Positions 2,699 to 21,953 of a stretch of 21,953 nucleotides of DNA are shown piece after piece. This DNA comes from Saccoglossus kowalevskii. Taxonomy: Eukaryota; Hemichordata; Enteropneusta; Harrimaniidae. The notes under the pieces are model-generated. The model was not told where the DNA came from and did no database searches. It saw only the letters and a list, made by a program, of their open reading frames with translations. The position numbers and the translations under genes were made by a program. The stretch lies in contig NW_003107091.1 in NCBI RefSeq assembly GCF_000003605.2, forward strand, positions 117,934 to 139,886. Reading direction: 5' to 3'. Every line of letters starts with the position of its first letter. Positions within the stretch are counted from its first letter, which is position 1.

Positions 2699-2808
2699 GA
2701 AAGAACTGAATGAACTTAATGCTCTTCACAATCAGTGCAGTGAACATGCTTCGCAGCAAGCTGATCTGATTCGACAACTTCAATCGTTGCAGTTTGATAC
2801 GCAGAAAA
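2699..2808 (+). CDS. CNTLN: CNTLN exon 1 of the window (residues 1-36)
   Basis: Acceptor TGTTACAG is followed by one base that completes a split codon, then KELNELNALHNQ and QQADLIRQLQSLQFDTQK. Vertebrate centlein has a very similar block (KELQELQNLYKQ, then QQAELIQQLQ). The donor is GTAAGT. Coiled-coil sequence. The exon ends in phase 1. Confidence 0.93.
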
Positions 2809-5800
2809 GTAAGTACTGATGTTCCACTGTTTAAAAAAATGAACTGTGAGGGCTCCTATTCAATAGCAACTTTTAACATTATGTATTATGTCTCATTATG
2901 TATTTAGCAGATGTTTTTTTTGTTAAGCCAAATTTTGTTGAAACTTTCTGTGTTCTTCTGCGTGTCTAATACTTGTTGTGTTTTCAGTCATGAAGAACCA
3001 GGAAGAAGCCCACACTATGGAATCGTCCTCTTTGCAGTCGGTAAGATATTTCACCTCCAGAGGGCTCTGTCACTTTTTCTGATTTGGCTATTCTCGTCTG
3101 TTGATTTCCCACAAACCTTTGCAGATTCTCTCTCAGAAAATAACTTTATAAAATTTATAAGATATTTCACCTCCAGAGGGCCCTGTCACTTTTTCTGATT
3201 GGCTTTTCTCGTCTTTTGATTACCCACAAACCTTTGCAGATTCTCTCTCAGAAAATAACTTTGTCTATTTAAAGTACACTCTGAGTTAGCAGAGTTGTTG
3301 TTGGCATTTGTCATTTTAAATTTTGCAAGCTACCACTTATTTGCAAAGTAGTAGAGTGACAGTATTGGATAGCCGAAACAAGTATGTTATGCATGGAATC
3401 AGGGCCTGCATGTGATCTCCTCTCATATCACATGGGAATATTTTACATAAATTAATTTTCACTAAACTCACTATCCCTGAACTCATTACTAGTACTTTGA
3501 CGTGCATATATATTTCTTCATTTCCGCACAATTTCCTCAATTTCATTCTCTGCAATTCAATTCCTTCAACAACGAAATACTTAACACTAGAGGGCGCTTC
3601 ACCCCAGCAATGAAATGTATGTTGTTGTTGTTTTGTTTTCAGATGTATTCTGATCTGAATTCTCGCTATCAAGCTTTGAAAGCCGATTTTGATAATTCTG
3701 AACGTCATCTTTCCACGATACCAGCACGGAATGTCAGCATGCAAGTCAATTTTGCACCTTGGGATGCGGTGAGTTTAGATTGCAAGACTTGTGGAGAAAA
3801 CTCAAATTCACCAGAAATGAGTCTTGTATTATAAAGTATTATTCATTTTAATTCAGCATCTGTGTCAAATTCTGCTATATTTTATTTATTTATCTCTATG
3901 TTGTATAATTATGTTATCATATGTTTTCTTGTGGGTTTACAATTATACGTCTTCTTGATGTAAACCATAGCGGTAAACAATCTGCGCAAAAACAAAACAT
4001 GGACTTATAGGTATGAACATGTATGTATGGTCACATGACCACCAATGGTATACTTTTAAATAGTGCAATTGTAAATCTTCATTTTGCATTGAAATAGACT
4101 TATAAAGTTTAATGCAGTAACGTAATGACTTCATACATCTTGATGAATGTGTCTGTGTGAATAATATACCTGTGGGGTGCACTCTGCTGGTCTCATTTAA
4201 TAATGTCTTTTCTCGCTTCTTTTTATTCAGGAAGTTCAAGTTTGTGAGTCGTGTGTTATTAATGAATGCAAAATGACAAGTTTACAAACAGAGGTTGATC
4301 TATTGAAAGAAAGATTGAAAGAAAAATCAAGGTATCTTTATTATCAATATTACATAATAAATAAAATGGATAGAACTGAAGAAGATTATAGTTTAAAAAT
4401 TGCATATTAGCGAGTCTGACCGTCAATCCGATGTACATACAATGTAGTTATATGACGGAATTTATCTTATCTTGTATTGAAACACTAAAGAAAGAAATAG
4501 ATAGATGTTTTTTTTTTATTTACTATGAAACTTTTTTTTTCTCATTTTTTTTATGTTTTGTCATTCACTGGATTTTTAAGTTCTTGATTTTGCCATTGAG
4601 GTATATTTATATTTTGTATGTATACGAAGATTTAACTATATTTATCAGCGAAAATATAAATCAAACCCAGTGAATAATGCATTTTCTGTGGCCACGTTAC
4701 AGAATATGGTTCTACTAATCTTGCGCTTGTTGTGATTTGACTGCGATATCATCAGTTTCTTGATTGTTAGGCCATTGTATCATCTTCGCCAGCCAAGGAC
4801 CATTTATTCGGCCAAAGCCTCAACATTAACCCTTGGCAGATTTCACCACGATTTACTGTATGTCGCACGCCCACAAACGATTATAAGATGGGCACATTTG
4901 ATTTACCCAATCAAAACTCACGATAGAAAGGACATATTACTTGGTAACATCGTGGCGCAAGTTCGGTCGAATATGTAAATCAACGTGTTGCTAGCTTTTT
5001 CTCTGTGGACGAACTTACTGACCATCAAAAGAAAAAACGTAGTGCGGTTTCTAAGGGAAACGATTTGTTAGTTGCAGCGAAGAACAGATCAGACAAGTCG
5101 ACATGTTATCTGTCTTGTCAGTTTTGTCAGTTTACTAAAACACGGTTTGCACAAATATTTAAACATTCTATGGTTTTCATTTACTTGTCCACAAATAATT
5201 TTCAACATTGGAATAACAAAAATTGGAAACGTGTTGACGAACATAGACCTTCTGTTCTTGACTCCTGGTGAATCAGCGCAGAGCCTACACGCCGCCATTG
5301 TCTTCAAATTTATGATACAGCAACGTTGATTGGTAGCGCCAGCTTCTTGGCGCGCCCAATCAAATGACTCAATTTAACTGCAGTGAAATACAGCTTTTCC
5401 TAACACGATCACGCGCGGGTTCGTGGGCCGTTTATGAATGGCTGGGTTTAGTGAAACCGTGTGATTCAGGCGATGCCATTGTACCATCTACCTAGTGTCA
5501 ACATTTGACAGTGGTCCTTAAAACATTGACAGTGATCCCCCAAACATTGCAGACATTTTCATTTTGTCACTATTTCTGAATTTGAAAACTTTTTGGTTTG
5601 CTATCACATGCTTAGACATCCACTGCGTCCGAAACCAAACACCATGACATATACATTGCTTTTTTGTTTCTTCCATGATATCTTCATGATGTGTCACCAA
5701 CTCTGAAATTTATCAATTTGTTCCACATCTGTCTACAAATAAATTTCCTTGAATTTTGTTATTAGATTGATTTATGCTATGGATAAAGAAGATCCTGACA

Positions 5801-8800
5801 AGGAATATGATTTATCACTAACAAGAAGTAAAAGAAGGGTGAGATAATTTGGGTTGGCATTTCATTTGATACTGTTATAAGATTTTGAATATTAAGCCAG
5901 ATATATACAACCAGAAGAATAAGAAACTTATTTTGCTTTGGCTAGACAGTAAATGTAAAAAAAAATAAACATATTGTGTTCAAATTTCATAAATTGCACA
6001 CATTGTTTGCATGTTTTTGCACCTCCTCTTTATTAATGGATTGTGCCATTTTAGAACAGCAGGTGGCCCTTTTATAATTGATGCAAAGCATCATGGGAAA
6101 ACAAGCAATCAACTAATAAATTGTAAAAATGCAATGATAAAATACAAACAGTATGCAATGTGAAAGGAACTCTCTTCAATTTTAAAATATTCCAATTTCT
6201 TAATAAATATATTTGATATGTAAATATAGCTATTCACTTTTATTTTAGTCCATGGTCGAGAACACAGGAAGTTCACATTTCAGCTCCGGCAATAGATCCA
6301 GATCACTGTCACCAATGAGGGCGCCATTACATACTAGTAGTCCTAAACAGAGAAGGTCTGCTGGTATCAGTACAGATAAAAAGACGGATGATCTTGAGAA
6401 ATTACTCAAATTGAAAGTATGTTTATATCACTATTACCGTACCAGTAAATATCGTCTCAAAAAGTGGTCAACCTTTTAGGTTAAATGTAACTCAGGCAGT
6501 TTATTTTTTTAATTTTTAACATTGATATTTATATAAGTTCTAAAATGTGTACAATGTTTGTTTGTGCTTTATTATGTTCTGTATAACACCCCCCAAATAT
6601 TTGAAATAGGACTTTTGGAATGAGACCAATTCAGTTTTGAGCGACTGTTGAGAAGCAGCAGCAAAAACTACTGGACTCGTTCTTCATCTCGGTGTTAGTT
6701 CTAGGTATCCCATAGTGCATGTGAATTTTATTTAAACAAAACAATGCGTTGTATATGTTGCATGGGACTCACATCATACAGCTACTCATTGTTATTATAT
6801 CTTGTGTCTCTAAGTTCTACTGACAATGGATGTATAATATTACAGAATGCAGAGATTGAGGATTTACGAGCCGCTCATGACAGGCGATTAGCGAGACTAC
6901 GTGCATTACAACATAATTATAATATTTTGAAAGAACAAATTAAAACTTATGAAGAAGAAAACAGGTGAGAAATAGACAATTGTTTTATTCTAATTTAATT
7001 GTATTGTCATTACTATTTTCTGATTGATATTTTGATAGTCACATTGACAGATCTCTGGCATCTTATTGGTTGAAAACATGATTTTGATTGGTCATGCAGT
7101 GGTATCCTGACATCTGATTGGTTAAACAAAGACCTCATAATGTCATTTCGAAATTGAAACTTGGTCATATTTAGACAGAATTTGTTCAAACTTATTTTAC
7201 ATTAGACATTATGGGACATAAGTGCATTTTTATTTAAAATGGCCGACTAGTGGCCATTTTGTTTTAATGAATGCTGTTCCGAAGTAATATCTCTGATATG
7301 TCTTGACTGATTATGTTTTGTTACAATATGCATTTGTTTCGTAAGCCAATTCAAGGTGGCCGAATGGCAGCCATTTTTAAGCTGAAATGTATCAAAACCA
7401 TCATTTCTGTCATTTTGGAACCAAATCAAATCAAACTTCACACATATGTTGTTATACATCATGTTTCTAATTCAAAGTTCTGATTCAAAATGGCAGGCTC
7501 ATTTCCACTTTGTTTTTAAATATTGCACGACTGGGACTGTGTCATTCTGATATTAATGTCTTGTTTAATTTGTTTTGTTCCATGCTGTCAAAAACATCAA
7601 CTAGTTTTCAGTCATTTATAGTACACACAAAAAATGAAATGATATTTTTACCATGCTTGTTCTACATTCCTAGTGGACGGAAAAAGAAGAAGAAAATGCA
7701 TCGTTCTGATCCTCGTAAACTACAGCAAGAAGACAGTGACAGCGTATGGAATGAATTGGCGTACTTCAAGGGACATAATAGAAATCTATTGATGGAAAGG
7801 TCGGTATTCTAGAACGATGTAATAAGACTGTGACTGAATATTATGACGATGGCCCCTGGCTAATGAAACACATATCATAGTGTCATGATCTGAATGCATT
7901 TACTGGTAATATACAGATCACAGTATCATAGCATGTTCTGAGGTTGAATCCTATCTGTCCGCTAAATTGAGATTGACTAAAAACCCTGGGCCATTAGCTG
8001 AGTTTCATTTACTCATGCCATTTTTTTAAGTGCTTTTGTTATTTTATATAACCAATGGTATTGTGTTGGCTCTCAAATAAACATAGTTGTTATCTGTCAT
8101 GCAATTTTAAACAAAATGAACTTTTATTTTGTTTTATTCATATATTCCTTGTTTTTGTGTGTGAACAATAGTGACCCCACATTTCACATTGAACAAAACT
8201 TCAATTTCTGTCTTCGCTGCAAATCTGTGAATTTCTAGAATGAACCTACAGGAAGAACTAGATTTGTTAAAGGTGCAAACAGCGGCCGATGCGGCTCACG
8301 TGGGAGAACTGACGCGGTGTCTGCAGCAAGAAAAAGAACAACTGAAAGGCCAGTTAGCGGAAGCCGAGAGAAGTCGAAAAATTAAAGATACCGAAAGAAA
8401 AGAAATATCAGAACAAAAAAGAAAGGTAACAAATTTACCAAGATATTATATCAATCCCTCAATATACTGTGAAAGCAATTGTATCTTCTAAAGTAAAATC
8501 AGTTTCAGTGATGATAAATTTTTGCTGATATTGTGTGTAAATTCTCTGAAATCAGTGAACGTCTATTACATACAATATAGAAAAGTTTATTTTATACAGT
8601 AAAAATAAAATACAGTAAAAGAAGTGTTCCGTGGTACAAATAATAGATGCTGTGTCAGCCTACTGTAAAATACTTTATTTTAGCTGGAATTAATTTTCCC
8701 TGAAAGACGTTTTGTGTGTTTTGTATGGAATTTATTTTTCACTGATTTTTGACGAGTTGAATGTAAAATATAGAAAAAAAGGTATTTTCGCTGCATTTCA

Positions 8801-11800
8801 TTTTCACTGAATCATTCCTGCAGCGAAAATAGCGAAAATTAATTCCAAGCGAAAATAAAGTATTTCACAGTACATGCAGTTATTTTATACAGAACAGTAA
8901 TTGAAGAATGAACTTCTATATTTGTAGATAAAATCTTTGGAGAAGTTATTGGAGAGGTTGGAATCTGAGAGCAATGATTTGATCGATGAGAGAGACAATC
9001 TTGTCAAGGAAAAAAGGTCAGTACAAAATATAGTTTTGTGTAAGAATACCGTATAGTACATAGTGTACCTGGAATACTGACTGACTTGTACCGTAACAAG
9101 GATTACTATTCTATCCCCTGATGTATGTATCGACTTGATAACAGTGCAGTGTCTGATGAGGTCACGTTATTTCAAGATAGAACTCCGTAAATTACGTTTA
9201 TTTATATGATGTATAAACATAAATCATTTTATCAACAATGTGCCCTCTAAGTTGATTTAATATTTGCTGTGACACAACAGAAAATCATACATTCATAGAG
9301 TGATCTTTAATAACATCCTATGATAGTTAAAGAATTTGTAATTAGATGAAAAGAAAATTCACAGTGTAAGTGTAAAAATGAAGGAAATCAGCCTTAGAGG
9401 GCGCACTACTATCTATTTTGTAAGTGTCATTGAATTTGGTAGCTGTAGGATGAACTACATTTATGCTATGGATGTGGGCAAGTTGATGTGTTGCCATGGT
9501 TATCTGACAATATACCACTGTGGTCACTGACAATATAAGTCATACCGTGTGTTTTACATTCATTCATTTGTGGTAATCCTATATGATACTACATGTATTA
9601 TGACCATACTGCGGTACATTCAGTACAAAACATAAACCACCATCAGTGATCGTTACGTCATATTGACCTCTGACCTCATAAAGGAATTTGAAAAATGAAA
9701 TCAGTCGGCTGAAGCAAGAATTATTAGAAAAAGATGGTGAAGTGACAGAAGTGAGAAAAGAAAATCATTATTTAACAAAAAAATTACGACAAAGAAAACT
9801 CAGCAGGAACAAAGCTAGGAGATGCAAGTCAGTGAAAGAGGTAAGTAGAGTGTCCTGATTACGAAACTGATTTATTTTTGTACTTTTACACCATGGTTGA
9901 TATTCAATTTATTTAACAATCTTATAAATGTAGTCCAAGACTGCCACCAGTATTTTATAATACTGTAAAACATGTCTTTTTCGCAAGCATTTCTTTTTCG
10001 TGAATTTAGCAAGAGAACTGATTCGCTAATTCAAGATGTCGCTAATGACTTTATTATAAATTCAAAATGGCCGCCAAACAAATAAATCAACAATGACAAG
10101 AGAGATTCGCTAAATCAACATTTCGCTATTACGTCATTTTACCTCAATTCGCTAAAATTGCATGCCGCTTTTTCAACATGTTTTATAATAGTTATTTTGT
10201 AACACACCACACACAAACAATGCTGTGATAAGTCAAAATAAACAAGCTGCAATAGGCTGAAGTCAAGGCCGCAAGAATCCAGATTAGACTCCAAGCTCTG
10301 GGCCAAAATCACACGTAATAAAGTGCATTTTTTTCACTTCTAATGGAGCAATAACTTATTTTCTTTTAGTTATTAGTATTGCATGCACTATACATAAATT
10401 ACAGAGATTTTTCTATGGTAAAAATAAATAATATTTTAATGATTAAGTATACAACATATGCGTATTTTGGTTTATATGTGTTTCTGTTGAAAATTTGTTT
10501 CTAATATGGCAGATCAGAATGCACAGAAATCTGAAGAAACAAAATGTTTCATGTCAATTATTTACTCACATCACCAGGGATTGCGTTAACCCCATATTTT
10601 GCTTCCCAGACTACAATAATTGAAGAGGGACCCAGTTTTTCAGGCAAACTGGGGTCCAATCTCTAATAAAGTTGTCTTGCTAAGACACTAGCGCAAACCC
10701 TGATCACATCCAATCTTCTTTGATGTGTATGAATTCTATACTCTTCAGATCTCTCTTTAAATTTGATCCTATCATGTTTAGGGTTTTCTAAATCACCTAA
10801 TCACCTAATACTGAGTACTGGTAATTCTTATCTTGAGTTCACTATCTATAACTTGTTTGCTAACATTTGTGTGTCACGTCAATTACGAACTTTAAAAATC
10901 ATGAATCCAATATCTCTGTATGATTTCCTGCTTTCATTTATTAGGTGTATTTAGGGTTAGATTTTTTGACTTGTAAGTCATTAGTGCAAACTGTTTGATT
11001 TATTTACTGCCATATACAAATGTAACCATAAACTGTTTTCATTACAGCATCAAAGAGCACTTAATAGGTCCATACAACACATGAGTGCATTATTTTCTGA
11101 TTTTGATGAAGATGGATGGGAAGAAATTAGCACTGACAGGTACGAGTTTTAAATTAGATTTTACCCGAATCTGTCATCATTTTATGTCACCTGTGTGTCT
11201 TTATGTCACGTACAAAAATAGTTGTTTTTACTTATAAATTAAAAGTTGGTTAAGGCTTTATTTTGACAATGGTTTTTGTCTTTTGATATTTTTCAATGCA
11301 TACAGCAGAGGTGAGGTAAGTTGATCAGTATAACTCACTCACTTACTTGTATTATTTCATACTCTAGCGGTGGTGAGGAGACCGGGGATAGCTTGGGAGA
11401 TAGAATAGTGAGAACGGCTACATCACCTGATTTAACATGTAGAACACTAGACAGATCATTGAGAAGAAGAAGAAGACGACATGATAGTAGCGGCAGATCA
11501 ATTTCTCCACGCAGCATAACTAAACCATCTAAAAGACAGGTGAGCTGCAATTCATTCATCCATTCCTCTATCTGTCTGTGCATCTATCCATCTATCTAGT
11601 GTCTGTTTTTTTTAGCAAATAAGTGTACTGCTATATTATACAAAATCATGTGATATACCTGGTTACGCTTTATTGATGTATTCTACTGGGAACTGTCTGA
11701 ATCGACCTTCAAAGATACAAAACGACCGCCGAGATCTCATTGACAACGAGAGCCGCAAGATTTTTTTTTGACTTTTAAATAGTGTTTGGTCAAGTATTAA

Positions 11801-14800
11801 GAGCTGACTGGTGTAACCTACTGTTGTGTCTTGTTCTAGGCGGCTTCAATTCATGGTCACATAAAACGACTCGCAAAGAGATATGAGGTGAATGAATCCG
11901 AGCGAAAATTGAAATGGAGTAACATTGGTGTGCAGACTGATGATGAAGGTATTGTATTTTTACATCAGGGTATATAGCATACTGTAGAATATTTTATTTT
12001 AGCTGGAATTAATTTTCGCTGAAAAGACGTTTTCGGTGTTTAGTATAGAATTTATTTTCACAGAGTTGAATGTGAAATATAGGAAAAATGGTATATTCAG
12101 TATATTTCAGCGAAAATGGTGAAAATTAATTCCAAGCGAAAATAAAGTAGTAGGTTTTATGTTGAAAATACATGTTATGTTGTACACATTTTAACTCAAA
12201 TGTTGTCTCAAATGTTCATAAACTTCTGTAATACCGTGTTCACATGTGTGCCAAAAAGCTGGTTTGGAGGCTGGCGTTGAAACATATGTGAACAAGATAA
12301 GCCAGAGCGCCCTCAATGTCAGCCTTGCTCTGGAGTTCCATTCATTGCAAGTATTTTAAAGGAACATGGCAGCCAAAAACAACGCCAGCTCAGTTTAGTC
12401 TTTATACATGTATGAACACAGGACCAATTCAAATCACTGATAGGGATTGTTTACCAAATTAGTCAAGCCGGCTCTGTGGCACGTGTGTCAACACAGTATA
12501 ATTGGTTTTTAACTTTACTAGTAAATTTATAAACATTGTCCTGATTGTAGACTTGGTGTGGCAGAAATGGACAACACCATCCACACATGCAAACAGCTTA
12601 TATGATATGTCTCAAGTTTGCTTGCTGCTACCATATTCGAAAAGGGTTGGCAGGGAGTTTAGTGAGAAAAGTATGAGAATTTTATGAACGGGAAGTCATT
12701 TACTGAGATTTCCAATACAGTTGGTGTTTCAAAATCCACAGTGTACGTAATTTGCAAAGGTGACATTGACTGGTAGTTAGGAAAGGTGGTTTCACAGCGT
12801 GTTCCACCCTGTGTCATTATGTCATATAGTACATATAGTTTTACATGATAACCAAATCTGGCATTATTAGAAAGTAATTTGAACTAAGACGATCAATGAA
12901 ATCATCTATTGCGACCACACACCATGATATCATCCACACAAGTATACATACTTTTGATAGATATTAGTATTATTTATTGAAAGTTAAAACACAGCTCCAT
13001 AAAAAAATCAATCTTTTCTGTGGCTCTTGGACGACATCTTGGAATTCATACCTGTACTCACCATATACACCATGTGTTGTTCATTTCACAGCTCCGAGAC
13101 CATGTAATCATTTAACTGTGATTGGCGTTGGTGACAACAGTGTGACCGATTACACCAATAATACAACAATAGATACTACTATCGGTAAGGCAGTATTTCC
13201 TATGCATTTGTATCTACCATTTAAAGTGCAGTGGTCGTCGCTCAGCGCGTGTTTGAATTTCATGTAAATAAACAATGTATTTTACATGCGTTGTATACGT
13301 TGCTATGAGTCCCATATCGAACAGGACGCGGCGTGACGACTGCCGCCCTTTACTGTAAAAGTTTATCTACGATAAAATAATAACATACTATTAGTGAACA
13401 TGCTTTTACAGATGCACAGACTTTAATATAAACTGTATGTCTGCCTAAGAAGCCGATGAACCCTATTACTGTACTAACTTACCAACATTCCACAAATATT
13501 GAAAATAATTTTGTATTATCTTATTTATCTTCTTGTGGAAGGAATTGATAAAAAACTCTCAGAATAAATCATAGGCAAATAAATATCTTGTATAATTTAT
13601 TGTTTTTTGTAGTACAATGAAATTTACATTTTAATTCACTCATTTATAAATTGTTTGTTGTGCTTTTGTAAGTTGATTGTGTTTGTGAGAAAAAAGGTCG
13701 GTGACTTTGTGTCTTCAAGATCCTAGTGAAAAATTCACTGTTCTTGAAGTTCACAATCATAATTCTTAGAAATTTGTCTTTCAAAAAATCAAAGAGTTTT
13801 ATACTATATTATAATTACTAGAGTTTATGTCTATTGCAGTTAGAAGACGAGACATTGCCACATCACCTCACATGGGATTGGCAAAACTGGGAAAATCACT
13901 CAATAGATCACATCGACTGGAAAGTCCAAGTATGAGTAGTTTGAAACAAAGACTTGGCAGTCTCCAACAACAGGTACAGTATTCTTAGTAGTAGTAGTAG
14001 TCCAGAGTTTTAAATCCGATTTGGTCCCCGAAGACGAGGGTGGCCGGATTTACCTTAAACTAGTGGCAATTTAAGGTTTTTTTGGAGCATGAGATAATTG
14101 GCCGGATGCCCTTCCTGACACCAATCCACTGTTTCGGCAGTGGGCCTAGCCTTTGAGGGAAACACCCATCATGCAAGGCAGCATGTGTATTCTTGTTTTA
14201 TTTTATTCTATTTGAATGAAAGAAAAATTATACCAGAAAATAAAAACAACCAATATAATGACTGAAAATTCTTTATATTTTCAGGTGACAGTACTGAGGG
14301 ATTCTAAGGCTTGCTACAAAAAAGTTTGAATGACGAGAAGGAAAGTAAGGAGCATCTACAGTCGGATCTGAGCGTGTCTAATCAAAGACTTAAGATCAGT
14401 AAACAAACCATTCAGGTAGGTATGCTGACTGCTGACATTGAATATGAGTGTTGTTTGTGGTAAACAATTCCATTCAAATATTAGACTATAGTAGTGTTCT
14501 CTGGACGAAATAAGCAGTTGTCACAACGTCTTTTATTTGAGAACGTTGTTAAAATGTGTGTGTGAACAGAATACGCCATTGTGGTGTCAGCGTTTTTACA
14601 CTATCGTAAAAGGGGTGGACCAGATCCTAAACGCTGTTGTCACACTGGATCTTGTACAACGCAATGTGCCGTGTGAACACAATACGACGGCCAAATCTCT
14701 AGCTAATCTGTTATCCAATGTTCGTAACACTATTTCTTCCCACCAGTTATTTTCGCGTTGTCGAGTCACTTGGGTTGTTGAGTACACATGTATATTGTTG

Positions 14801-17800
14801 CGTTATTCATACACGCAAATAGTATGAACATGAACCGATCATTTCTCGATCTTGTTCGACCTAACAAGTAGGCGATTTCCTGCTTTCGAAATCTCGATAA
14901 ATCATTCGTCGTTGTCTTCTTCTCAAGCGAAAAACACACGGAAAAACAGAAACAAAGCAAATGCATTTACCAGAGGGGACACCATTTTGTCGATTGACCT
15001 TTCCATTTGTTTATAGATGACTTTCCCGGAAGTCAAAGATACAGCGCTTTGCATGCATGTACATGCCGTTTTGGGGTTTAAAGTAAACTTGCACGCGTGA
15101 TATTGTGATTCTGGGTATACCAATCGACGTCACAAAAATATAATTCCCTTCTATCGACTATCAACAAACTGACATGTTGATATTTTTCGCCATGACAAAG
15201 CAGGAGTATTTTTGCACCCCAATTTCGCTACTTCCAGGAAAGTGGTCTATTGACCTTTCTGTGATATGATTCCTCAAGGGCGCAAAAACACCGGTGTGAG
15301 AACACAAGCAGACAATTCAGCAGATTATTTAATATTTGCACAACAAAAAAACAGACGTGTGAGAACGTAACTTTTATGAGTCACTATTTTGCGGTAAAAC
15401 AGTTTTCCAGATTAATATTTTCCAAACAGATACCTCAAAGTAGTCGTTCTCAGAATTGTTCATCTAATGGAATTGTAGATTTAGAATTATCAATTTAAAT
15501 TTTATTTATATTTTTTAATTTCTTAAAAACCATAAGGTAGATTACATTTGTATTTACCAGGAACATTGAGTGGTTTTCTATTAGATTTGTGTATTTTGAT
15601 GGCACTATTTTGCACATTTGTTGTTTTCATCTTACCAGATACTGTAGAATACTTTATTTTCGCTTGATATTAATTTTTGCTGAAGGAAATGATTCAGTGA
15701 AAATAAAATCCAATATGCAATACTGCCCTCAGTCGTTGAAATGTTTGTCAATCCACCACCCCCATCAATAAAATCCAGCGAATATGAATCAAAAGCAATG
15801 CATTGGCTGCCTGAATGTATTGAGAACACTTTTGTGAGTTCTTCATTATACTGTAAAATGACTAATTTTCACTGGGTTTAAATATCACTGATTTACCATT
15901 TCAGGCATATTCAGTGGGTTTTAAATTCACGGTTTTATCATTTAGATAATATATTTTATGCTAAATTTTACATATTCACTGGGTTTTAATTTAGCGCATT
16001 TTCCAGTCAGCGAAATAAGCCAAATTAAAACCCAGTGAATAATTAACCATTTTACAGTATCTCATTTATGCTAATTTTTCTTATCAGAAATTAACTCAAG
16101 AACTTGATAACAGCCAGGCAGCTAAGGAGACATTGGAAAGACAGTTGGAAACCAAGATACAGACATTACAAGATGCTGAGATCATGTACGGAAAATTACC
16201 AACATCTGGGAACGGAAATAAACGAACAGAGTCTGAATGGAAACAACTGGAAAGCAAGCTGAAGGTGAGTTGATGATCAAAAATGGTTCAAATTATTTTG
16301 ATGATTTATCTTATATTAAATAACACCAAATATCATGTTCGACATGTATGTAGAAAGCATTGTTTGTTTACATGAAATTCGAAAGCATGCTGTGCAATAA
16401 GTGTCGAAGCTTTATTTTTAAAAAATATGAAATTGAATTTATGCTCAAGTGTTTTGATCTAAAAATCTATGTTTTGGTCAGTGTGCACACAACCAAAAGT
16501 ACAGGTTGATCTTTTTTTTGATTTATTTCACCACTGCACAGCGCCCTCTGTTGACAAATTGATAACACCTGTCATGTACCGATATATGCCTGTTAATAAA
16601 TATTTTAGCGAAAAAAAGATGGAAAAAAAAAGGCTCGCTGGTCTATTCTTGAAAACAATTGAACATATTTTGTTGTTGCTAAACTTTTCTATATTTTTTT
16701 TTATCACAGAATTCCACAACTGAAATTTCCAAACAAGCTAGTGTCATTAAAACATTTAAAAGTGAAAATGAGAGTCATTCTGAACAGATCAAAACGTTAC
16801 AGGAAAAGTAAGTCTAAAGTTTACATGTATATGGTATTTAGAAATTTTGTGTCAGCAGAAATTAAACCTGAGGTGTGTTTACTGAAGGAAAACTTTTTGC
16901 AAAATGTTTTTGAACTTATCATTCAGTAAAATAAAAAGAAGCTTGAAGTGCTCACAAACTATTTCTTTAGTGTACACACCGATGCATCCAGTACTCAGTC
17001 GAATTGCACCAAGGAAACAAGGGTTACTGATGCGATCTCAAATGATGAGATGTCTTCTCTGGAATCGTTCATTATTACAATGGGATTTTTATTTTTATAT
17101 ATTTGTCTTCTTTTTAGAATCAATAAATTAGAGCGTGATATTACACAAAAAAGAACTTTGATTGAAGATTTGAGAAGTAAAGTCAAAGCAGTACAAGAGG
17201 ATAAGAAAACCAACGCAGAAACAATTGTAAGTAGCATGATGGAGATCAGAAGTCAGTGTACTCACTCGACTAATCTTTATGAAATATAAAGTCTGCTATG
17301 AGTTTGATAATGGCATGGTACAAATTTTTCCATATTTTGTGAACTCAAATGGTCAATTCTTTTGTGGGATTGAACTTGGAAAGGTCATTGACTCATACCA
17401 CTGTTTTTGGAACTATTGACTCCAGTTGCATTTGTTCAACGATTCCACATGTTGTTTTTGTTCCAAAATTTTGCAAATAAAACAATTAGTGACATCATGG
17501 CTCAAAAATATTCAAAAATGAAATGATGTTTCCAGCAAATTTTTACTGAGTTTGTCACTCAAGGTTTAAATATAAAATAAGACTGTTTGAAGAAGATAAC
17601 AACAATTAAGATTAGTGACAAGATTTAGGAATGTGACCTTAACGAAAATAGTTCTAATTTGAACTATACACATGTACTAACTCCCAACCATTTACAAATA
17701 CTGTGGAATACTTTATTTTCGCTGAAAAGGTATTTTGGACGTTTTGTATGGAATTTATTTTCACTGATCTTTGACCAGTTTAATGTGAAATATAAGAAAA

Positions 17801-20281
17801 AAAATAAAATTCGCTGGATTTTATTTTCACCGAATCATCCCTTCAGCAAAAATAAATTCCAAGCGAAAATAAAGTATTCTACAGTATGTGAAATATTTAA
17901 TGCAGAATGATTTGTATAATATGTGTTACTTTTTTTTCTAATGGCAGAAAAACTTGGAAGATAAAATCAAATCAATGACTGGTGGAACAGATCAAAAGAA
18001 ATCTTACGTTGAATCGTTGAAAAAACGAGTAACGGCACTGACCACTGAAAAACACCAGTATGAGGAGCTGTACTTTAAAGCAAATACAGAACTAGAAAAG
18101 AAGGTAACAGGTCTTTTGTAGTTTTTTATGTAAAATTTGAATTTCAGTATTTTACAACCCATACGATTTAATTTGCTTTGTAGTCATTTCCAAACTTCAC
18201 TTGTGGTTTGAAATTTTAAGGTTATTTTGAGGATACCGCAAAGTATGCATAAAGCCAGTACAGCTGAAGTATCGGCCGACGCGCAGGGTACTGTCTGAGT
18301 GCATACTTTGCGGTACACTTGTAATAACCTTATTATTATATATCTTTTCCTCTCAAAGATACATCATGGGAATGTCGAAATCAAAAAAAGTTTAGAACAG
18401 ATTTAGCGACTTCTTTGTATGGGGTCAGATCAAACCCTGGGGGCTGCCATGTTTGTTTTTATTATTAGAGGATACTTATGCGCTTAATTGTTCCATATTT
18501 GGGGAATTCACATCTCCTAATATGGTAGGATGAAAATACCTCGTAAAATACCGCAAAATTACGACATGCTGTAACTTATTGTGTTACGATGTATAATAAT
18601 TAATAATGCATATTTGCGAATTGTAGGTAATATTTGAAAAACGTATTCTGCATCACTTACAGGTGAATCTTTGTGATTTCACATTTGTTGAAATGACATT
18701 TACTAACGTCAACAAATACATGCATGTTCTGATGGTTATGTAATAAATAATATTTAATTATATTATGTATTTAAATTATTCAGAACCATCAATAAAAGTT
18801 GTTATAATTGAGTGTAATGCATGTACTTGATATTCCAAAGACATCTAATTGCATTACTGATGAATTGTACTTGCATGACTGGAATTGACAATAGTTTTAC
18901 AGTAAGGTCTACAAACCCATCACTGAAAATAATGACTTAATTTTAATGTTTTTTGCATGTGCTTCATTTCAGACCAAACAGCTGATATCTGCACAGAACC
19001 GGAAAACTGAAGCGGAGAATACGGCAGTAGAACTGGAGACAGCTGCTGCACAACAATTACATGGTTTAGCTAGCCGTAGTGAATCGACTATTGAAACTAT
19101 TAAAGGAAAACTGAAAAAATCTCACGCCAGAATACAGGAACTCAACCAGTTTGTTAAAGTGAGTAAATGTAAATTGAAGTAGTGTAAAATCTGTATTATA
19201 ATTTGCGGCTTCTATTAAAATTGTATATTGCAACAGAGGAGATACGGTTTCTATTAGGGCATCTACACATATGAGAAATGATGAATTTTTGGTTTTTCAA
19301 TTGTTAAAAAAAAAAATGGGTGCGACTTCCATTAGGGATGCAGCTTCTAATTAAACAGTAGTATGGTTCAGTACATTTACTAATATCTTCTATATTCCAG
19401 TTGGTAGCACAAACTGATATTGAAATCATTGATTTATTTAGACAAAAAAACTCATTCCTAATTCAGTATTTGTTTTTAATAATACAGGATATTTTTTTTA
19501 GTTTTTAGCAAGTGAACTGTTGAACCAAGTCCATGACGCAAGAGATCTAGTGAAACAAGCCAAAAAGTCGAAATTAAAGAACGGTTTAACAACCGGTGTT
19601 TCGATGAGTAAAGCGCATTCATTGGCCTCGTCTATTCTGAATATGAGCGAAACAGACATAGAAGATTTTATGAATTCAACTGATGGAACGTTTGACGAAG
19701 AAATGGTAAGTTGTAAATTGAAGAAAATTTTCAAAAAAATTGAAGAAAATTACACAATAGTCTGTAGCAGTGAATTTGACCCGAGTACTCGATACAGTGA
19801 CTCACACAAATTCATGTCACTTCATCTTATTTGGCAATGTTGTATTTTTATACTCTATGTATTGATAATAATGACAAATTGAGTCTTTGAAAGACTTGAA
19901 AGTCTTTTCCTGGTGAGGTGCATGTTCGACCATAGCTTGTGGTGTGATGAAAGTGTGATTTTCATACAAATGTTGAGCTCCAGCTTCGTTACAGCGCCCT
20001 CTATAACTGCTGAATATACCGGTAAAGAGTAGCACACTGGAGAACACATTTTTCTTGTGCATCTAAATTTCTTTCTTGTATACTTACAACAATATGGTTA
20101 TTTGCAGGCCGCGGAAGGACTGGATGATCATCGTAGAGACAGCGAATGGCACAGAAGATGGCAAGCGGTTCTCAGCTCTAAAGTCCCATTTGCCAAACAG
20201 CTGATGGAAGTTTTGATGGAGAAAGTCAGCGAAAGAGATCAACTGTTATCTAAAGTAGAATTATCACAACCATTAAAATAA
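2699..20281 (+). CDS. CNTLN: Centlein homologue, 24 exons, 5' end outside the window
   Basis: Joined exons: 2699-2808, 2988-3040, 3643-3768, 4231-4331, 5766-5838, 6249-6416, 6846-6964, 7674-7799, 8239-8425, 8928-9016, 9684-9840, 11048-11139, 11368-11539, 11840-11948, 13092-13184, 13840-13973, 14285-14415, 16088-16264, 16710-16807, 17118-17226, 17948-18103, 18973-19158, 19502-19705, 20108-20281. All introns are GT-AG and phases agree at every junction except for one lost base inside exon 17. The product, about 1,047 residues here, is mainly heptad-rich coiled coil with a Ser/Arg/Pro linker near residues 130-205 and another near 467-625. Blocks resembling vertebrate centlein occur in the same order to the C-terminus. 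Known for the family: centlein sits at the proximal centriole, binds C-Nap1/CEP250 and CEP68 in the centrosome linker, and supports the sperm head-tail junction. Role in this organism is inferred from homology. Residue numbers used below count from the first full codon in exon 1. Confidence 0.92.
2988..3040 (+). CDS. CNTLN: CNTLN exon 2 (residues 37-54)
   Basis: Acceptor TTTTCAG; the split ATC codon is followed by MKNQEEAHTMESSSLQS, matching the vertebrate block with NQEDVHTAES. The donor is GTAAGA. At 53 bp this is the shortest exon. It abuts the tandemly duplicated intron segment that starts at 3042. Confidence 0.9.
3042..3262. repeat. Tandem duplication, about 106-bp unit, in intron 2
   Basis: Unit 1 (3042-3147) and unit 2 (3158-3262) both run from TAAGATATTTCACCTCCAG to AAAATAACTTT with only a few differences and a 10-bp AT spacer. 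Each unit carries CTTTGCAG and TCTCTCAG strings that look like 3' splice sites. Unit 1 begins one base into the exon 2 donor. Confidence 0.9.
3263..3642. other. Rest of intron 2
   Basis: No exon is seen between the tandem duplication and the exon 3 acceptor. The stretch contains one CTCF-like GAGGGCGC site (3584-3597), listed separately. Reading frames here have no supporting motif or phase. Confidence 0.6.
3584..3597 (+). promoter_or_regulatory. CTCF-core-like site
   Basis: ACACTAGAGGGCGC matches the bilaterian CTCF core CCASYAGRKGGCRS at every position except the first. Binding is not shown by sequence alone. Confidence 0.35.
3643..3768 (+). CDS. CNTLN: CNTLN exon 3 (residues 55-96)
   Basis: Acceptor TTTGTTTTCAG and donor GTGAGT bound a phase 0-0 exon of 42 codons. 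It begins MYSDLNSRYQALKADFDNSE, the counterpart of the vertebrate LYNELHICFETTKSNEA segment, and runs on to VNFAPWDA. The internal ATG is not the gene start. Confidence 0.9.
3769..4230. other. Intron 3, nothing recognised
   Basis: AT-rich noncoding sequence with normal splice signals at both ends. I see no repeat family, RNA gene or phase-compatible extra exon. Confidence 0.6.
4231..4331 (+). CDS. CNTLN: CNTLN exon 4 (residues 97-129)
   Basis: Acceptor TTTTTATTCAG leads into EVQVCESCVINECKMTSLQ, then TEVDLLKERLKEKS. The second half is the coiled coil equivalent to the vertebrate LQDQLLQKEQENAKLKEKL segment. The exon ends in phase 2 with an unusual donor, GTATCTTTA. The CxxC pair in CESC is not a recognised motif. 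Confidence 0.88.
4556..4689. mobile_element. Degenerate foldback related to the 15849-16059 element
   Basis: TCATTCACTGGATTTTT (from 4561) pairs imperfectly with AAACCCAGTGAATAATGCAT upstream of 4690. The same CACTGGGTTT / AAACCCAGTGAATAA arms occur in the clearer element at 15849-16059, so this is probably an old copy of that family. Confidence 0.4.
5089..5298 (-). CDS. Nested antisense ORF with ZAD-like zinc-binding pattern
   Basis: This 69-residue frame starts MAACRLCADSPGV at an ATG in strong initiation context (ACAATGG) and ends in LTKLTRQITCRLV. Cysteines 4, 7, 50 and 53 form C-x2-C-x42-C-x2-C, with CRLC at the start and YLCKPCFSKL at the end. That layout is typical of ZAD-type and related N-terminal zinc-coordinating domains. 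It lies antisense within intron 4, behind a GC-rich stretch with CCAAT boxes. No clear donor follows the domain, and it ends at a stop, so it may be the first exon of a larger gene, a truncated gene or a transposon-derived remnant. Function is unknown; the zinc-domain call is inferred from Cys spacing and flanking residues. Confidence 0.45.
   Translation of the reverse strand: MAACRLCADSPGVKNRRSMFVNTFPIFVIPMLKIICGQVNENHRMFKYLCKPCFSKLTKLTRQITCRLV
5299..5480 (-). promoter_or_regulatory. Candidate TATA-less promoter for the antisense ORF
   Basis: Upstream of the antisense ATG are two CCAAT boxes in opposite orientation (5328-5334 and 5356-5362), an E2F-like TTGGCGCGCC (5347-5356), an AP-1 consensus TGACTCA (5365-5371), and CpG-rich sequence near 5405-5425. 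No TATA box is placed suitably. Promoter activity is inferred. Confidence 0.35.
5328..5361. repeat. Inverted repeat pairing CCAAT and GC boxes
   Basis: GATTGGTAGCGCCA (5328-5341) and TGGCGCGCCCAATC (5348-5361) are inverted repeats with 12 of 14 positions paired and a 6-bp loop. Each arm contains a CCAAT box and a GCGC core. Confidence 0.7.
5490..5765. other. 3' part of intron 4
   Basis: The motif ACAGTGGTCC / ACAGTGATCC repeats around 5510-5540 in a short degenerate array. Otherwise the stretch is AT-rich and ends in the U12-like branch site and acceptor. Confidence 0.5.
5766..5838 (+). CDS. CNTLN: CNTLN exon 5 (residues 130-154)
   Basis: Acceptor TTATTAG; one base completes a split Arg codon, then LIYAMDKEDPDKEYDLSL and TRSKRR. 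The donor is GTGAGA. The exon is charged linker rather than coiled coil. It is supported by phase on both sides more than by similarity. Confidence 0.8.
5839..6248. other. Intron 5, nothing recognised
   Basis: AT-rich noncoding sequence. A small palindrome, GATGCAAAGCATC, occurs near 6080. No exon or mobile element is seen. Confidence 0.55.
6249..6416 (+). CDS. CNTLN: CNTLN exon 6 (residues 155-210), SRSLSP linker
   Basis: A phase 0-0 exon of 56 codons with acceptor TATTTTAG and donor GTATGT. It encodes a Ser/Arg/Pro-rich linker containing RSRSLSPMRA and SSPKQRRSAG, then the start of a helix, DDLEKLLKLK. Vertebrate centlein has KRSRSLSPKSS at the same place followed by a similar helix. The SP dipeptides are plausible kinase sites (inference). 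Confidence 0.92.
6417..6845. other. Intron 6 with a dispersed repeat copy
   Basis: About 55 bp at 6716-6770, including ATGCGTTGTATATGTTGC, is similar to 13252-13312 in intron 15. No other feature is recognised. Confidence 0.5.
6846..6964 (+). CDS. CNTLN: CNTLN exon 7 (residues 211-249)
   Basis: Acceptor ATATTACAG leads to NAEIEDLRAAHDRRLARLRA, then LQHNYNILKEQIKTYEEEN. This matches the vertebrate DELRDAHEKRKERLQMLQTN block and the following AVKEQLKQWEEG. The donor is GTGAGA and the exon ends in phase 2. Strong coiled coil. Confidence 0.95.
6965..7673. other. Intron 7 with ATGGCC-rich repeat sequence
   Basis: AAAATGGCCGACTAGTGGCCATTTT-like palindromic sequence lies near 7228-7252 with 9-bp perfect arms. 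Related strings (TGGCCGAATGGCAGCC; TTCAAAATGGCAGG) follow near 7356 and 7484. ATTGG occurs three times in about 90 bp near 7065-7130. This is probably a decayed dispersed repeat; no exon is seen. Confidence 0.45.
7674..7799 (+). CDS. CNTLN: CNTLN exon 8 (residues 250-291), VWNELAYFK block
   Basis: After a split Ser codon the exon reads GRKKKKMHRSDPRKLQQEDS, then DSVWNELAYFKGHNRNLLME. The vertebrate protein has IKRADPQQLRQEDSDAVWNE and LAYFKRENQELM at this point, the best conserved region in the window. The lysine run is a possible nuclear-localisation or acidic-surface-binding patch. The donor GTCGGT is weak, but the phase joins exon 9 correctly. Confidence 0.96.
7800..8238. other. Intron 8, nothing clearly recognised
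   Basis: AT-rich noncoding sequence. Weak inverted similarity between about 7867-7890 and 7915-7935 is too imperfect to call an element. Confidence 0.5.
8239..8425 (+). CDS. CNTLN: CNTLN exon 9 (residues 292-354)
   Basis: Acceptor TTTCTAG; the split Arg is followed by MNLQEELDLLKVQTAADAAH, matching vertebrate MNLEEELDELKVHISIDKAA. Long heptad-rich coiled coil ends in ISEQKRK at donor GTAACA. The ATG near the exon start is internal to the protein. Confidence 0.95.
8426..8927. other. Intron 9, largely a miniature transposon
   Basis: The intron contains the foldback element at 8661-8872. Nothing else is recognised in the flanks. Confidence 0.6.
8661..8872. mobile_element. MITE, CTGTARAATACTTTATTTT family, copy 1
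   Basis: The left end reads TACTGTAAAATACTTTATTT. The right end is its inverted complement with few mismatches, about 26 bp, and both ends are bordered by TA. The 212-bp interior has no coding sequence. TA target duplications and CTGT-type ends suggest a nonautonomous Tc1/mariner-like element. Related copies are at 11980, 15640 and 17699. Confidence 0.8.
8928..9016 (+). CDS. CNTLN: CNTLN exon 10 (residues 355-383)
   Basis: Acceptor TATTTGTAG; the exon reads IKSLEKLLERLESESNDLID, then ERDNLVKEK. It is coiled coil, with donor GTCAGT, ending in phase 2. The corresponding vertebrate segment is VTELENRLKSFEKRSRKLKE. Confidence 0.88.
9017..9683. other. Intron 10, no element recognised
   Basis: Noncoding AT-rich sequence with one GAGGGCGC motif at 9395-9404. 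The acceptor of exon 11 (TCATAAAG) has a weak pyrimidine tract. Confidence 0.5.
9684..9840 (+). CDS. CNTLN: CNTLN exon 11 (residues 384-436)
   Basis: The split Arg is followed by NLKNEISRLKQELLEKDGEV and then KENHYLTKKLRQRKLSRNKA. The vertebrate counterpart is KLMKENDFLKSLLKQQQEDT and onward. The acceptor is weak, but phase and similarity on both sides fix it. The donor is GTAAGT. The C-terminal third is strongly basic (KLRQRKLSRNKARRCK). Confidence 0.88.
9841..11047. other. Intron 11 with an old foldback
   Basis: The element at 9961-10190 is the only structure recognised. The remainder to the acceptor is AT-rich noncoding sequence. Exons 11 and 12 join in phase and match the continuous vertebrate segment, so no exon appears to be missed. 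Confidence 0.6.
9961..10190. mobile_element. Degenerate foldback element with TA flanks
   Basis: The left end TACTGTAAAACATGTCTTTT resembles the inverted complement of the right end, TTCAACATGTTTTATAATA. TTCGCTAA recurs inside in both orientations. A central TTCAAAATGGCCGCCAA is present. It is probably another TA-flanked miniature element, diverged from those at 8661 and 15849. Confidence 0.55.
11048..11139 (+). CDS. CNTLN: CNTLN exon 12 (residues 437-466), DGWEEIS block
   Basis: Acceptor CATTACAG; the exon reads HQRALNRSIQHMSALFSDFD, then EDGWEEISTD. Vertebrate centlein has HHTVLNHSIKVMSNVFENLS followed by KDGWEDVSES, a diagnostic match. The donor is GTACGA; ends in phase 2. Confidence 0.95.
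11368..11539 (+). CDS. CNTLN: CNTLN exon 13 (residues 467-524), Arg/Ser linker
   Basis: After a split Ser the exon reads GGEETGDSLGDRIVRTATSP. It continues to LDRSLRRRRRRHDSSGR, then SISPRSITKPSKRQ. It has acceptor TACTCTAG and donor GTGAGC. The run of six arginines is encoded by an (AGA)n tract. Disordered linker with two SP sites; vertebrate similarity is limited to the acidic start. Confidence 0.88.
11540..11839. other. Intron 13, nothing recognised
   Basis: It starts with a short imperfect CATC/TATC microsatellite around 11555-11600, followed by unremarkable noncoding sequence. Confidence 0.5.
11840..11948 (+). CDS. CNTLN: CNTLN exon 14 (residues 525-560)
   Basis: Acceptor TTGTTCTAG; the exon reads AASIHGHIKRLAKRYEVNES, then ERKLKWSNIGVQTDDE. 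It ends in phase 1 at donor GTATTG. The helix plus acidic tail is consistent with linker in this part of centlein. Call rests on splice signals and open phase. Confidence 0.82.
11980..12150. mobile_element. MITE, CTGTARAATACTTTATTTT family, copy 2
   Basis: The left end TACTGTAGAATATTTTATTT and the right end CCAAGCGAAAATAAAGTA are inverted. The outermost right bases are lost or altered. The GCTGGAATTAATTTTCGCTG interior matches the copy at 8661. It begins about 31 bp after the exon 14 donor. Confidence 0.75.
12232..12498. mobile_element. Foldback element with about 34-bp imperfect terminal repeats
   Basis: The left end TACCGTGTTCACATGTGTGC aligns with the inverted complement of the right end, TACTGTGTTGACACACGTGC. 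The similarity continues into AGCTGG / AGCCGG. TA flanks both ends. No coding capacity. Probably a nonautonomous TA-target DNA transposon. Confidence 0.5.
12640..12776 (+). pseudogene. Broken Tc1-like transposase N-terminal fragment
   Basis: One frame reads KRVGREFSEKSMRIL to a stop at 12685-12687. An overlapping frame from 12684 reads MNGKSFTEISNTVGVSKSTV and ends at 12776. Together they resemble the first helix-turn-helix of Tc1/mariner-type transposases (GR-x-LSE...GKS-x-x-EIA...GVSKSTV). The shift, the stops and the absence of a catalytic domain show it is dead. The family call is by motif resemblance. Confidence 0.5.
13092..13184 (+). CDS. CNTLN: CNTLN exon 15, candidate cassette exon (residues 561-591)
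   Basis: A good acceptor (TTCATTTCACAG) and donor (GTAAGG) bound 93 bp that is open in the required phase and phase 1 at both ends. It encodes PRPCNHLTVIGVGDNSVTDY, then TNNTTIDTTI. Exons 14 and 16 also join in frame without it, so it could be skipped. I find no clear vertebrate counterpart. Confidence 0.6.
13185..13839. other. Intron 15 with a dispersed repeat copy
   Basis: About 60 bp at 13252-13312, including ATGCGTTGTATACGTTGC, resembles 6716-6770 in intron 6. Nothing else is recognised. Confidence 0.5.
13840..13973 (+). CDS. CNTLN: CNTLN exon 16 (residues 592-636)
   Basis: Acceptor TCTATTGCAG; after a split Val codon the exon reads RRRDIATSPHMGLAKLGKSL, and ends MSSLKQRLGSLQQQ. The vertebrate segment ends ILLRERIISLQQQN. 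The donor is GTACAG, phase 0. The basic linker gives way to coiled coil here. Confidence 0.9.
13974..14284. repeat. Intron 16, dispersed-repeat fragment
   Basis: A (TAG)n run at 13988-14002 is followed by sequence containing GGCCGGATGCCCTTCCTGAC near 14100. That string is familiar to me from dispersed repeats in several animal genomes, but I cannot name the family. No coding sequence is seen. Confidence 0.35.
14285..14415 (+). CDS. CNTLN: CNTLN exon 17, frame broken at an A6 run (residues 637-680)
   Basis: Acceptor TATTTTCAG and donor GTAGGT are good. Entering in phase 0 the exon reads VTVLRDSKACYKKV then TGA at 14327-14329. From 14323 the -1 frame reads SLNDEKESKEHLQSDLSVSN, then QRLKISKQTIQ. 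The latter matches vertebrate VSDQRFQTSRQTI. The exon is 131 bp where 132 would keep phase. A seventh A in the run at 14318-14323 would make both halves continuous and give the same length as the vertebrate block. Assembly error, a real 1-bp deletion, and slippage at the A run are all possible. Confidence 0.88.
15640..15785. mobile_element. MITE, CTGTARAATACTTTATTTT family, partial copy 3
   Basis: The left end TACTGTAGAATACTTTATTT is intact and followed by the TCGCTTGATATTAATTTTTGCT interior. The right end is rearranged or lost: GTGAAAATAAAATCCA near 15700 and ATAAAATCCAGCGAA near 15770 are all that remain. Confidence 0.6.
15849..16059. mobile_element. MITE, CTGTAAAATG family, complete
   Basis: The left arm TACTGTAAAATGACTAATTT, then CACTGGGTTTAA, is inverted at the right end as TTAAAACCCAGTGAATAATT, then AACCATTTTACAGTA. 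The terminal repeats are about 35 bp and bordered by TA. Inner CACTGGGTTTTAA copies add further pairing. Noncoding, likely Tc1/mariner-type nonautonomous. Confidence 0.8.
16088..16264 (+). CDS. CNTLN: CNTLN exon 18 (residues 681-739)
   Basis: Acceptor TTCTTATCAG; the exon reads KLTQELDNSQAAKETLERQL and ends ESEWKQLESKLK. The vertebrate protein has KLNLDLAGLRKEKEDLLKKL and later LEMKQLQYKLK. The exon is phase 0-0, with donor GTGAGT. Coiled coil interrupted by a Gly/Asn/Pro linker (KLPTSGNGNKR). Confidence 0.92.
16265..16709. other. Intron 18, one CTCF-like site
   Basis: GCGCCCTCTGTTGA at 16541-16554 is the reverse complement of a CTCF-core-like AGAGGGCGC site. Otherwise unremarkable AT-rich sequence. 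Confidence 0.5.
16710..16807 (+). CDS. CNTLN: CNTLN exon 19 (residues 740-771)
   Basis: Acceptor TTATCACAG; the exon reads NSTTEISKQASVIKTFKSEN, then ESHSEQIKTLQE. It matches vertebrate NATNELTKQSSNVKTLKFEL. The donor is GTAAGT, phase 2. Coiled coil. Confidence 0.93.
16808..17117. other. Intron 19, nothing recognised
   Basis: Short intron with strong splice signals. Open frames cross its 3' end into exon 20 but are not supported as coding in the intron part. Confidence 0.6.
17118..17226 (+). CDS. CNTLN: CNTLN exon 20 (residues 772-808), ERDIT block
   Basis: Acceptor TTCTTTTTAG; after a split Lys the exon reads INKLERDITQKRTLIEDLRS. Vertebrate centlein has ISRMERDITMKRHLIEDLKF here, among the closest matches in the window. 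The donor is GTAAGT, phase 0. Confidence 0.96.
17227..17947. other. Intron 20, contains a miniature transposon
   Basis: The foldback at 17699-17886 ends about 60 bp before exon 21. The remainder is noncoding with nothing recognised. Confidence 0.6.
17699..17886. mobile_element. MITE, CTGTARAATACTTTATTTT family, copy 4
   Basis: Left end TACTGTGGAATACTTTATTT and right end GCGAAAATAAAGTATTCTAC then AGTA are inverted over about 26 bp with one mismatch, bordered by TA. The interior shares TTGTATGGAATTTATTTTCA and GTGAAATATA(A)GAAAAAA with the copy at 8661. It is the best preserved copy. Confidence 0.85.
17948..18103 (+). CDS. CNTLN: CNTLN exon 21 (residues 809-860)
   Basis: Acceptor TCTAATGGCAG; the exon reads KNLEDKIKSMTGGTDQKKSY, then VESLKKRVTALTTEKHQYEE, then LYFKANTELEKK. 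The vertebrate protein has SIDSLKQRLNVAVKEKSQYE and QMYQKSKEELEKK. The exon is phase 0-0, with donor GTAACA. Coiled coil. Confidence 0.95.
18104..18972. other. Intron 21 with a short foldback
   Basis: The element at 18217-18332 is the only clear structure. The rest is AT-rich, with no exon expected between the in-phase neighbours. Confidence 0.6.
18217..18332. mobile_element. 116-bp foldback, TAAGGTTATT ends
   Basis: TAAGGTTATT, then TACCGCAAAGTATGCA, pairs with TGCATACTTTGCGGTA, then AATAACCTTA. A 6-7 bp bulge lies at the same place in each arm and the loop is CpG-bearing (about 18251-18299). TA lies at both outer ends. It looks like a very small nonautonomous DNA transposon or a structured hairpin. 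Confidence 0.7.
18973..19158 (+). CDS. CNTLN: CNTLN exon 22 (residues 861-922)
   Basis: Acceptor TTCATTTCAG; the exon reads TKQLISAQNRKTEAENTAVE, then LETAAAQQLHGLASRSESTI, and ends IQELNQFVK. Vertebrate centlein has IETAASKQLQELALQSEQVL and VEEFTTFVK. The exon is phase 0-0, with donor GTGAGT. Strong coiled coil. Confidence 0.96.
19159..19501. repeat. Intron 22, degenerate CTTCTATTAGGG repeats
   Basis: GCGGCTTCTATTAAA (19205), ACGGTTTCTATTAGGG (about 19244), GCGACTTCCATTAGGG (about 19322) and GCAGCTTCTAATTAAA (about 19340) are related strings. They suggest a decayed short tandem or dispersed repeat. Confidence 0.35.
19502..19705 (+). CDS. CNTLN: CNTLN exon 23 (residues 923-990), ASSILN block
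   Basis: Acceptor ATTTTTTTTAG; the exon reads FLASELLNQVHDARDLVKQA, then a Lys-rich linker, then SKAHSLASSILNMSETDIED. The vertebrate block is HKAQTLAASILNISRSDLEE. An alternative AG at 19507-19508 would remove 7 nt and break the frame, so the first AG is used. The donor is GTAAGT, phase 0. Confidence 0.96.
19706..20107. other. Intron 23, one CTCF-like site
   Basis: GCGCCCTCTA at 19994-20003 is an inverted GAGGGCGC motif. No other feature is seen. Confidence 0.5.
20108..20281 (+). CDS. CNTLN: CNTLN exon 24, C-terminus and stop (residues 991-1047)
   Basis: Acceptor TATTTGCAG; the exon reads AAEGLDDHRRDSEWHRRWQA, then VPFAKQLMEVLMEKVSERDQ, and ends at TAA (20279-20281). Vertebrate centlein ends with a similar NDKEW...LPFASYLLEAVLEKINEKKK segment followed by a short tail, so the C-terminus is close to full length. 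Confidence 0.96.
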   Translation, partial: AAEGLDDHRRDSEWHRRWQAVLSSKVPFAKQLMEVLMEKVSERDQLLSKVELSQPLK

Positions 20282-21735: not shown

Positions 21736-21953
21736 CTAGTTTGTTCGAGGGTGCCCTGTATTTCTATGACCGGACTTGCTCAATGAGCTAATAGTCTAAA
21801 ATTCAACTGCAGTGTAGCTAGTTTGAGGGAGGGCTCCCTGCATTTCTATGACCGGACTTGCTCAATGAGGTAATAGTCTAAAATTCAACTGCAGTGTAGC
21901 TAGTTTGAGGGAGGGCTCCCTGCATTTCTATGACCGGACTTGCTCAATGAGTT
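21736..21953. repeat. 82-bp tandem repeat, at least 2.6 units, open at window end
   Basis: Units start at CTAGTTTG: 21736-21817, 21818-21899 and 21900 to the window end. Each contains TTTCTATGACCGGACTTGCT and AAAATTCAACTGCAGTGTAG. Units 2 and 3 are nearly identical; unit 1 differs in its first third (TTCGAGGGTGCCC against TGAGGGAGGGCTCC). Confidence 0.95.

Follow-up and report, generated by a model that had tools for sequence, protein, structure and literature searches.

The centlein gene in the window

The window, meaning the whole 21,953-nt stretch of Saccoglossus kowalevskii DNA that was analysed, contained 22 recognizable exons of an animal centlein (CNTLN) gene. They all lay on the + strand and ended at the stop codon at 20279-20281. 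The features referred to below were as follows.

2699..2808, + strand: centlein exon a, the first one identified, from the exon model and the alignment with the presumed human centlein sequence
2988..3040, + strand: centlein exon a2, 53 nt, sought for the 17 residues that human centlein presumably has between exons a and b
3643..13973, + strand: centlein exons b to m (12 exons), together forming a single frame of 515 open codons
13840..13973, + strand: centlein exon m, ending in phase 0, from the exon phases
14285..14415, + strand: centlein exon n with the frame break, from AG/GT splice sites, its 131 nt, phase-0 neighbours and two half-open frames
14305..14329, + strand: interval for one missing base, between a TAA (14305-14307) in one frame and a TGA (14327-14329) in the other
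14318..14323, + strand: run of six A, candidate place of the loss, from the sequence and a codon model
16088..16264, + strand: centlein exon o, starting in phase 0, from the exon phases
16088..20281, + strand: centlein exons o to u (7 exons), a single open frame of 367 codons with the TAA at 20279-20281 as its end

The exon boundaries were placed manually at AG/GT sites under the guidance of phase, which in particular decided the start of exon d (6284). All joins apart from those of exon n agreed in phase. The identity of the gene rests on fragments of the presumed human centlein sequence. Three collinear stretches of these fragments were identical to the window's protein at 32 of 65, 74 of 152 and 158 of 407 positions, and their scores were 170, 361 and 680, while 300 shuffles each reached at most 60, 97 and 140. 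The fragments touched 16 of the 22 exons (a, a2, b, d to g and m to u), with exons c and h to l lying outside them. Against this presumed sequence, the collinear similarity expected of an orthologue ran over the protein, including its C-terminus. The stretch scoring 680 ran from exon m to exon u and had no gap within exon n, the ambiguous part of which had been padded with seven X to 44 residues before the alignment. Human centlein presumably has 44 residues at this position, and 17 between exons a and b. The small exon a2, found at the latter place, supports the presumed human sequence.

Pfam gave only sub-threshold matches to the protein, the best being CtIP_N at 20.5 bits against a cut-off of 27, and no centlein model was among the matches. 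The 398-residue C-terminal part matched no solved protein chain at an E value of 0.01. When its relatives were sought with six short peptide patterns, 18 stretches in viral_contigs and 62 in genome_contigs matched one of the patterns and none was confirmed, which was expected because these collections are viral and prokaryotic. No Rfam family reached its gathering score in the window, the tRNA scan found none, and the eight open frames outside the centlein exons had no Pfam match above cut-off.

Several repeats accompanied the gene. A 115-bp tandem unit (3042-3262; 1.9 copies, 95% matches) began with base two of the intron that follows exon a2, which places the exon a2 donor at the repeat edge. 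A dispersed short repeat (TACTGTAGAATACTTTATTTTCGCTG...) occurred at 8657-8872, 11976-12149, 15636-15893 and 17692-17893, in both orientations and resembling a miniature transposon; an exact search with 24 of its bases found nothing in genome_contigs and viral_contigs, and a like search with 24 bases of another, intronic repeat found nothing in viral_contigs. The intron that follows exon r carried an inverted repeat (18212-18337) with 50-nt arms, 78% complementary and 26 nt apart, and an 82-bp tandem repeat of 2.6 copies (21736-21951) ended within two bases of the window's end.

A frame break confined to exon n

Exon n was bounded by TTTTCAG upstream and GTAGGT downstream. Its donor matched the consensus at 8 of 9 positions and its acceptor tract contained 12 pyrimidines in 15. 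Both flanking exons meet it at phase 0, so its length should be divisible by three. Read from 14285, the first 14 codons gave VTVLRDSKACYKKV and were followed by the TGA at 14327-14329. In the frame one base earlier, the upstream part was closed by the TAA at 14305-14307, after which ...SLNDEKESKEHLQSDLSVSNQRLKISKQTIQ stayed open up to the donor. These 30 codons joined the 367 of the last seven exons, leaving 397 open codons 3' of the break. Exon n was the sole frame-breaking exon of the gene.

These observations agree with much of the first-pass annotation, which had described an exon of 131 nt instead of 132, two halves in different frames and a downstream half in the -1 frame. The AG/GT bounds, the two stop codons and the phases of exons m and o upheld each of these points in turn, and reading the sequence confirmed the C-AAAAAA-G placed at 14318-14323.

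Position of the putative missing base

Insertion of one base restored an open exon in 85 ways, all after bases 14305 to 14328, corresponding to 63 distinct longer forms and 45 peptides. Forms of exon n two bases shorter were also open, with 13 peptides. We preferred one missing base to two extra ones because human centlein presumably has 44 residues here, and the shorter forms were dropped solely on that account.

The first-pass annotation had mapped the break to the A6 run. This placement was not unique, since the 63 open forms spread across 14305-14329. With a codon model fitted to 919 codons of this gene, the A run received 0.5% under a flat prior. Its share was 2.6, 9.6 or 24.7% when loss was taken as proportional to run length, its square or its cube, and it reached 18.2% when loss doubled, or 61.8% when loss tripled, with each added base. 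An amino-acid-only model gave 0.4, 1.9, 7.1, 19.1, 13.8 and 53.9% for the same six priors in order. A place outside the run was thus preferred in 10 of the 12 model settings. The reason lay in the residues directly 5' of the run, which read LLQ in the second frame and ACY in the first. The protein is 11% leucine and 6% glutamine, compared with about 1% each of cysteine and tyrosine, so the models favoured a break upstream of the run. Codon use therefore spoke against the A6 assignment unless long runs lose bases very much more often than short ones. A run of six or more was present in 104 of 2407 exon stretches of 24 nt, and its presence inside the interval is a mild hint of a run-length error. 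The A run is best regarded as a candidate site of loss whose placement is unproven.

Homopolymer runs in the gene and the window

Besides the run in exon n, 17 coding runs of five or more (counted over 21 exons, a2 left out) were all in frame, and six of these 17 consisted of six or more A. Noncoding A/T runs in the window reached a length of 13. There was no sign of general homopolymer loss in the window.

A separate feature of the run lengths was a shortage at exactly six. Over positions 1-21953, 27 A/T runs of this length were observed against 54 expected from an order-2 Markov model, compared with 118 against 130 for runs of five and 22 against 23 for runs of seven. Runs of nine or more numbered 14, with about 7 expected. 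For noncoding A/T runs, the probability of continuing was 0.37 at length five and rose to 0.67 for those of six. Run compression was considered as the cause of the deficit at six and rejected, since runs of five were not in excess and longer runs were not short.

Origin of the frame break

Rather than a new mode of gene reading, the break in exon n is most likely a technical fault or the mark of an ordinary broken copy. An old pseudogene is improbable: the 21 other exons were open, in phase and flanked by AG and GT (with boundaries set by hand and guided by phase), and they showed no additional stops, frame breaks or damaged splice sites. The single break without decay elsewhere therefore fits either an error or a very recent change. 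Between these we favour, at a probability of roughly 0.55, a base missing from the consensus by error, a preference held on general grounds. On this account the locus would be a normal animal centlein gene with introns, and its genomic consensus would be missing one base of exon n somewhere in 14305-14329. The likeliest single cause would be an indel error left over from sequencing or assembly, located in the A6 run or immediately 5' of it. The living animal would then make a normal 44-codon exon and full-length centlein. In long-read-only bacterial assemblies, residual errors were most commonly errors of homopolymer length (PMC8812927). A run-length error would be less apt here if the break lies outside the A run, where the codon model mostly puts it. 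The earlier proposal that a homopolymer assembly error is the likeliest cause thus stands in part: an error is plausible as the leading cause, while the general homopolymer loss that might have accompanied it gave no sign in the window.

The main competitor, and a distinctly weaker one, is a true frameshift allele of recent origin, which may be segregating or be confined to the sequenced animal. The deletion of one base would be real, truncating centlein and probably triggering nonsense-mediated decay. Heterozygous null alleles are common in outbred animals, the lesion stands alone in an otherwise intact gene, and systematic run errors left no sign in the window, all of which count in its favour. 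Such an allele cannot be old, as nothing else in the gene has decayed. A fixed null would also be costly if the sperm role seen in the mouse is shared, since inactivation of mouse centlein caused sperm decapitation and male sterility (PMC8363609). A real deletion might in addition be softened by skipping of exon n, although we consider this unlikely. Exons m and o meet 0-0 and the joined frame, 2649 nt when counted from exon b, ran uninterrupted to its stop codon, so that the protein would be just 44 residues shorter than with an intact exon. Against skipping, the splice sites of exon n are good and the exon is probably included as a rule, and a length of 44 residues does not divide into complete heptads. 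The first-pass annotation had foreseen the loss of the last ~400 residues. The 397 codons after the break support that size; the loss is not inevitable, because the exon is symmetric and skipping it costs 44 residues.

It is highly improbable that a different splice choice opens the frame in a normal gene. A brute-force search did find 12 pairs of an exon m donor and an exon n acceptor, 16 internal introns and one exon n donor that left an open frame, but every solution dropped part of exon n. The acceptors at 14337, 14308 and 14324 had 5, 7 and 6 pyrimidines in 15, compared with 7-13 in the acceptors used, so that 14308 equalled the weakest of these. The donors at 14324 and 14291 matched at 5 and 4 of 9 positions, compared with 6-9 in the donors used. 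The scoring covered these five alternative sites; the remaining acceptors were purine-rich by eye. The internal introns would measure just 26-104 nt. Neither was there a twin or mutually exclusive exon in 13974-16087, where the best score was 25 against 24-41 for 20 shuffled queries. The best score over the whole window was 33, a value that has no shuffle control of its own.

Transcriptional or ribosomal slippage at the A6 run, restoring the frame from a gene with six A, is no more credible than alternative splicing. The zero frame contains two AAA codons with the stop one codon later, and one lysine tRNA paired to the second AAA could slip back by a base and pair again. According to the review PMC5009743, about 2% of potyviral transcripts acquire an extra A at GAAAAAA through the viral polymerase, and some ribosomal frameshifts seem independent of a stimulatory signal; the absence of structure does not by itself dispose of slippage, because some shifts seem to need no signal. 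The same source describes bacterial transcriptional slippage on runs of 9, whereas the run here has six. The site and the RNA after it both speak against ribosomal slippage on AAA-AAA, which the first-pass annotation had raised. The zero-frame heptamer is C_AAA_AAA, on which the P-site tRNA cannot fully re-pair in a tandem slip, and between 14285 and the stop the zero frame contained no tandem slippery heptamer of the form X_XXY_YYZ. The downstream RNA was no more structured than shuffled sequences in a folding model that leaves pseudoknots aside: for the 92 nt downstream, z was 0.19 and 109 of 200 shuffles were as good or better, and for 47 nt at the usual spacing, z was +2.0 and 199 of 200 were as good or better. 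Hardest of all to credit is the full scenario in which the DNA truly has six A and full-length centlein is routinely made because RNA polymerase II or the lysine tRNA slips without a stimulatory structure. A nuclear animal gene would then depend on corrective slippage. A literature search on centlein and frameshifting returned nothing bearing on the exon n break in the titles and abstract openings among the matches listed.

Consequences for the protein and its annotation

With the break ~400 residues from the end, it would fall at roughly residue 1000 of centlein, judging from the presumed human sequence. The published descriptions name a full-length construct CENTLEIN 1-1406 and place the RABIN8-binding part at 916-952 (PMC10520482), while SUN5 binding needs residues 971-1396 (PMC8363609). 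If the break is real, the SUN5-binding part would be lost nearly entirely and the RABIN8-binding part kept, with the proviso that the numbering of the two papers may differ slightly. A real allele would also make the 0-0 exon a simple test of whether skipping spares the ciliary and sperm protein. For annotation, the locus calls for caution, as automatic prediction would truncate centlein, split the gene in two or invent a splice site. More generally, a homopolymer should be blamed for a frame break beside it only when an orthologue is at hand for comparison.

Comparison with known systems

The gene in the window is collinear with the presumed sequence of human centlein, the coiled-coil protein of the centrosome linker and sperm neck, and differs from it by the out-of-frame exon n of the consensus. 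In showing a lone frame break within an intact gene, it resembles the residual indel errors of draft assemblies, but the runs of the window were not generally shortened. Programmed -1 ribosomal frameshifting shares with exon n an A6 run and a -1 frame downstream. It characteristically combines a zero-frame slippery heptamer with a downstream stem-loop or pseudoknot, whereas exon n had neither an X_XXY_YYZ in the zero frame nor a fold beyond that of shuffled sequences.
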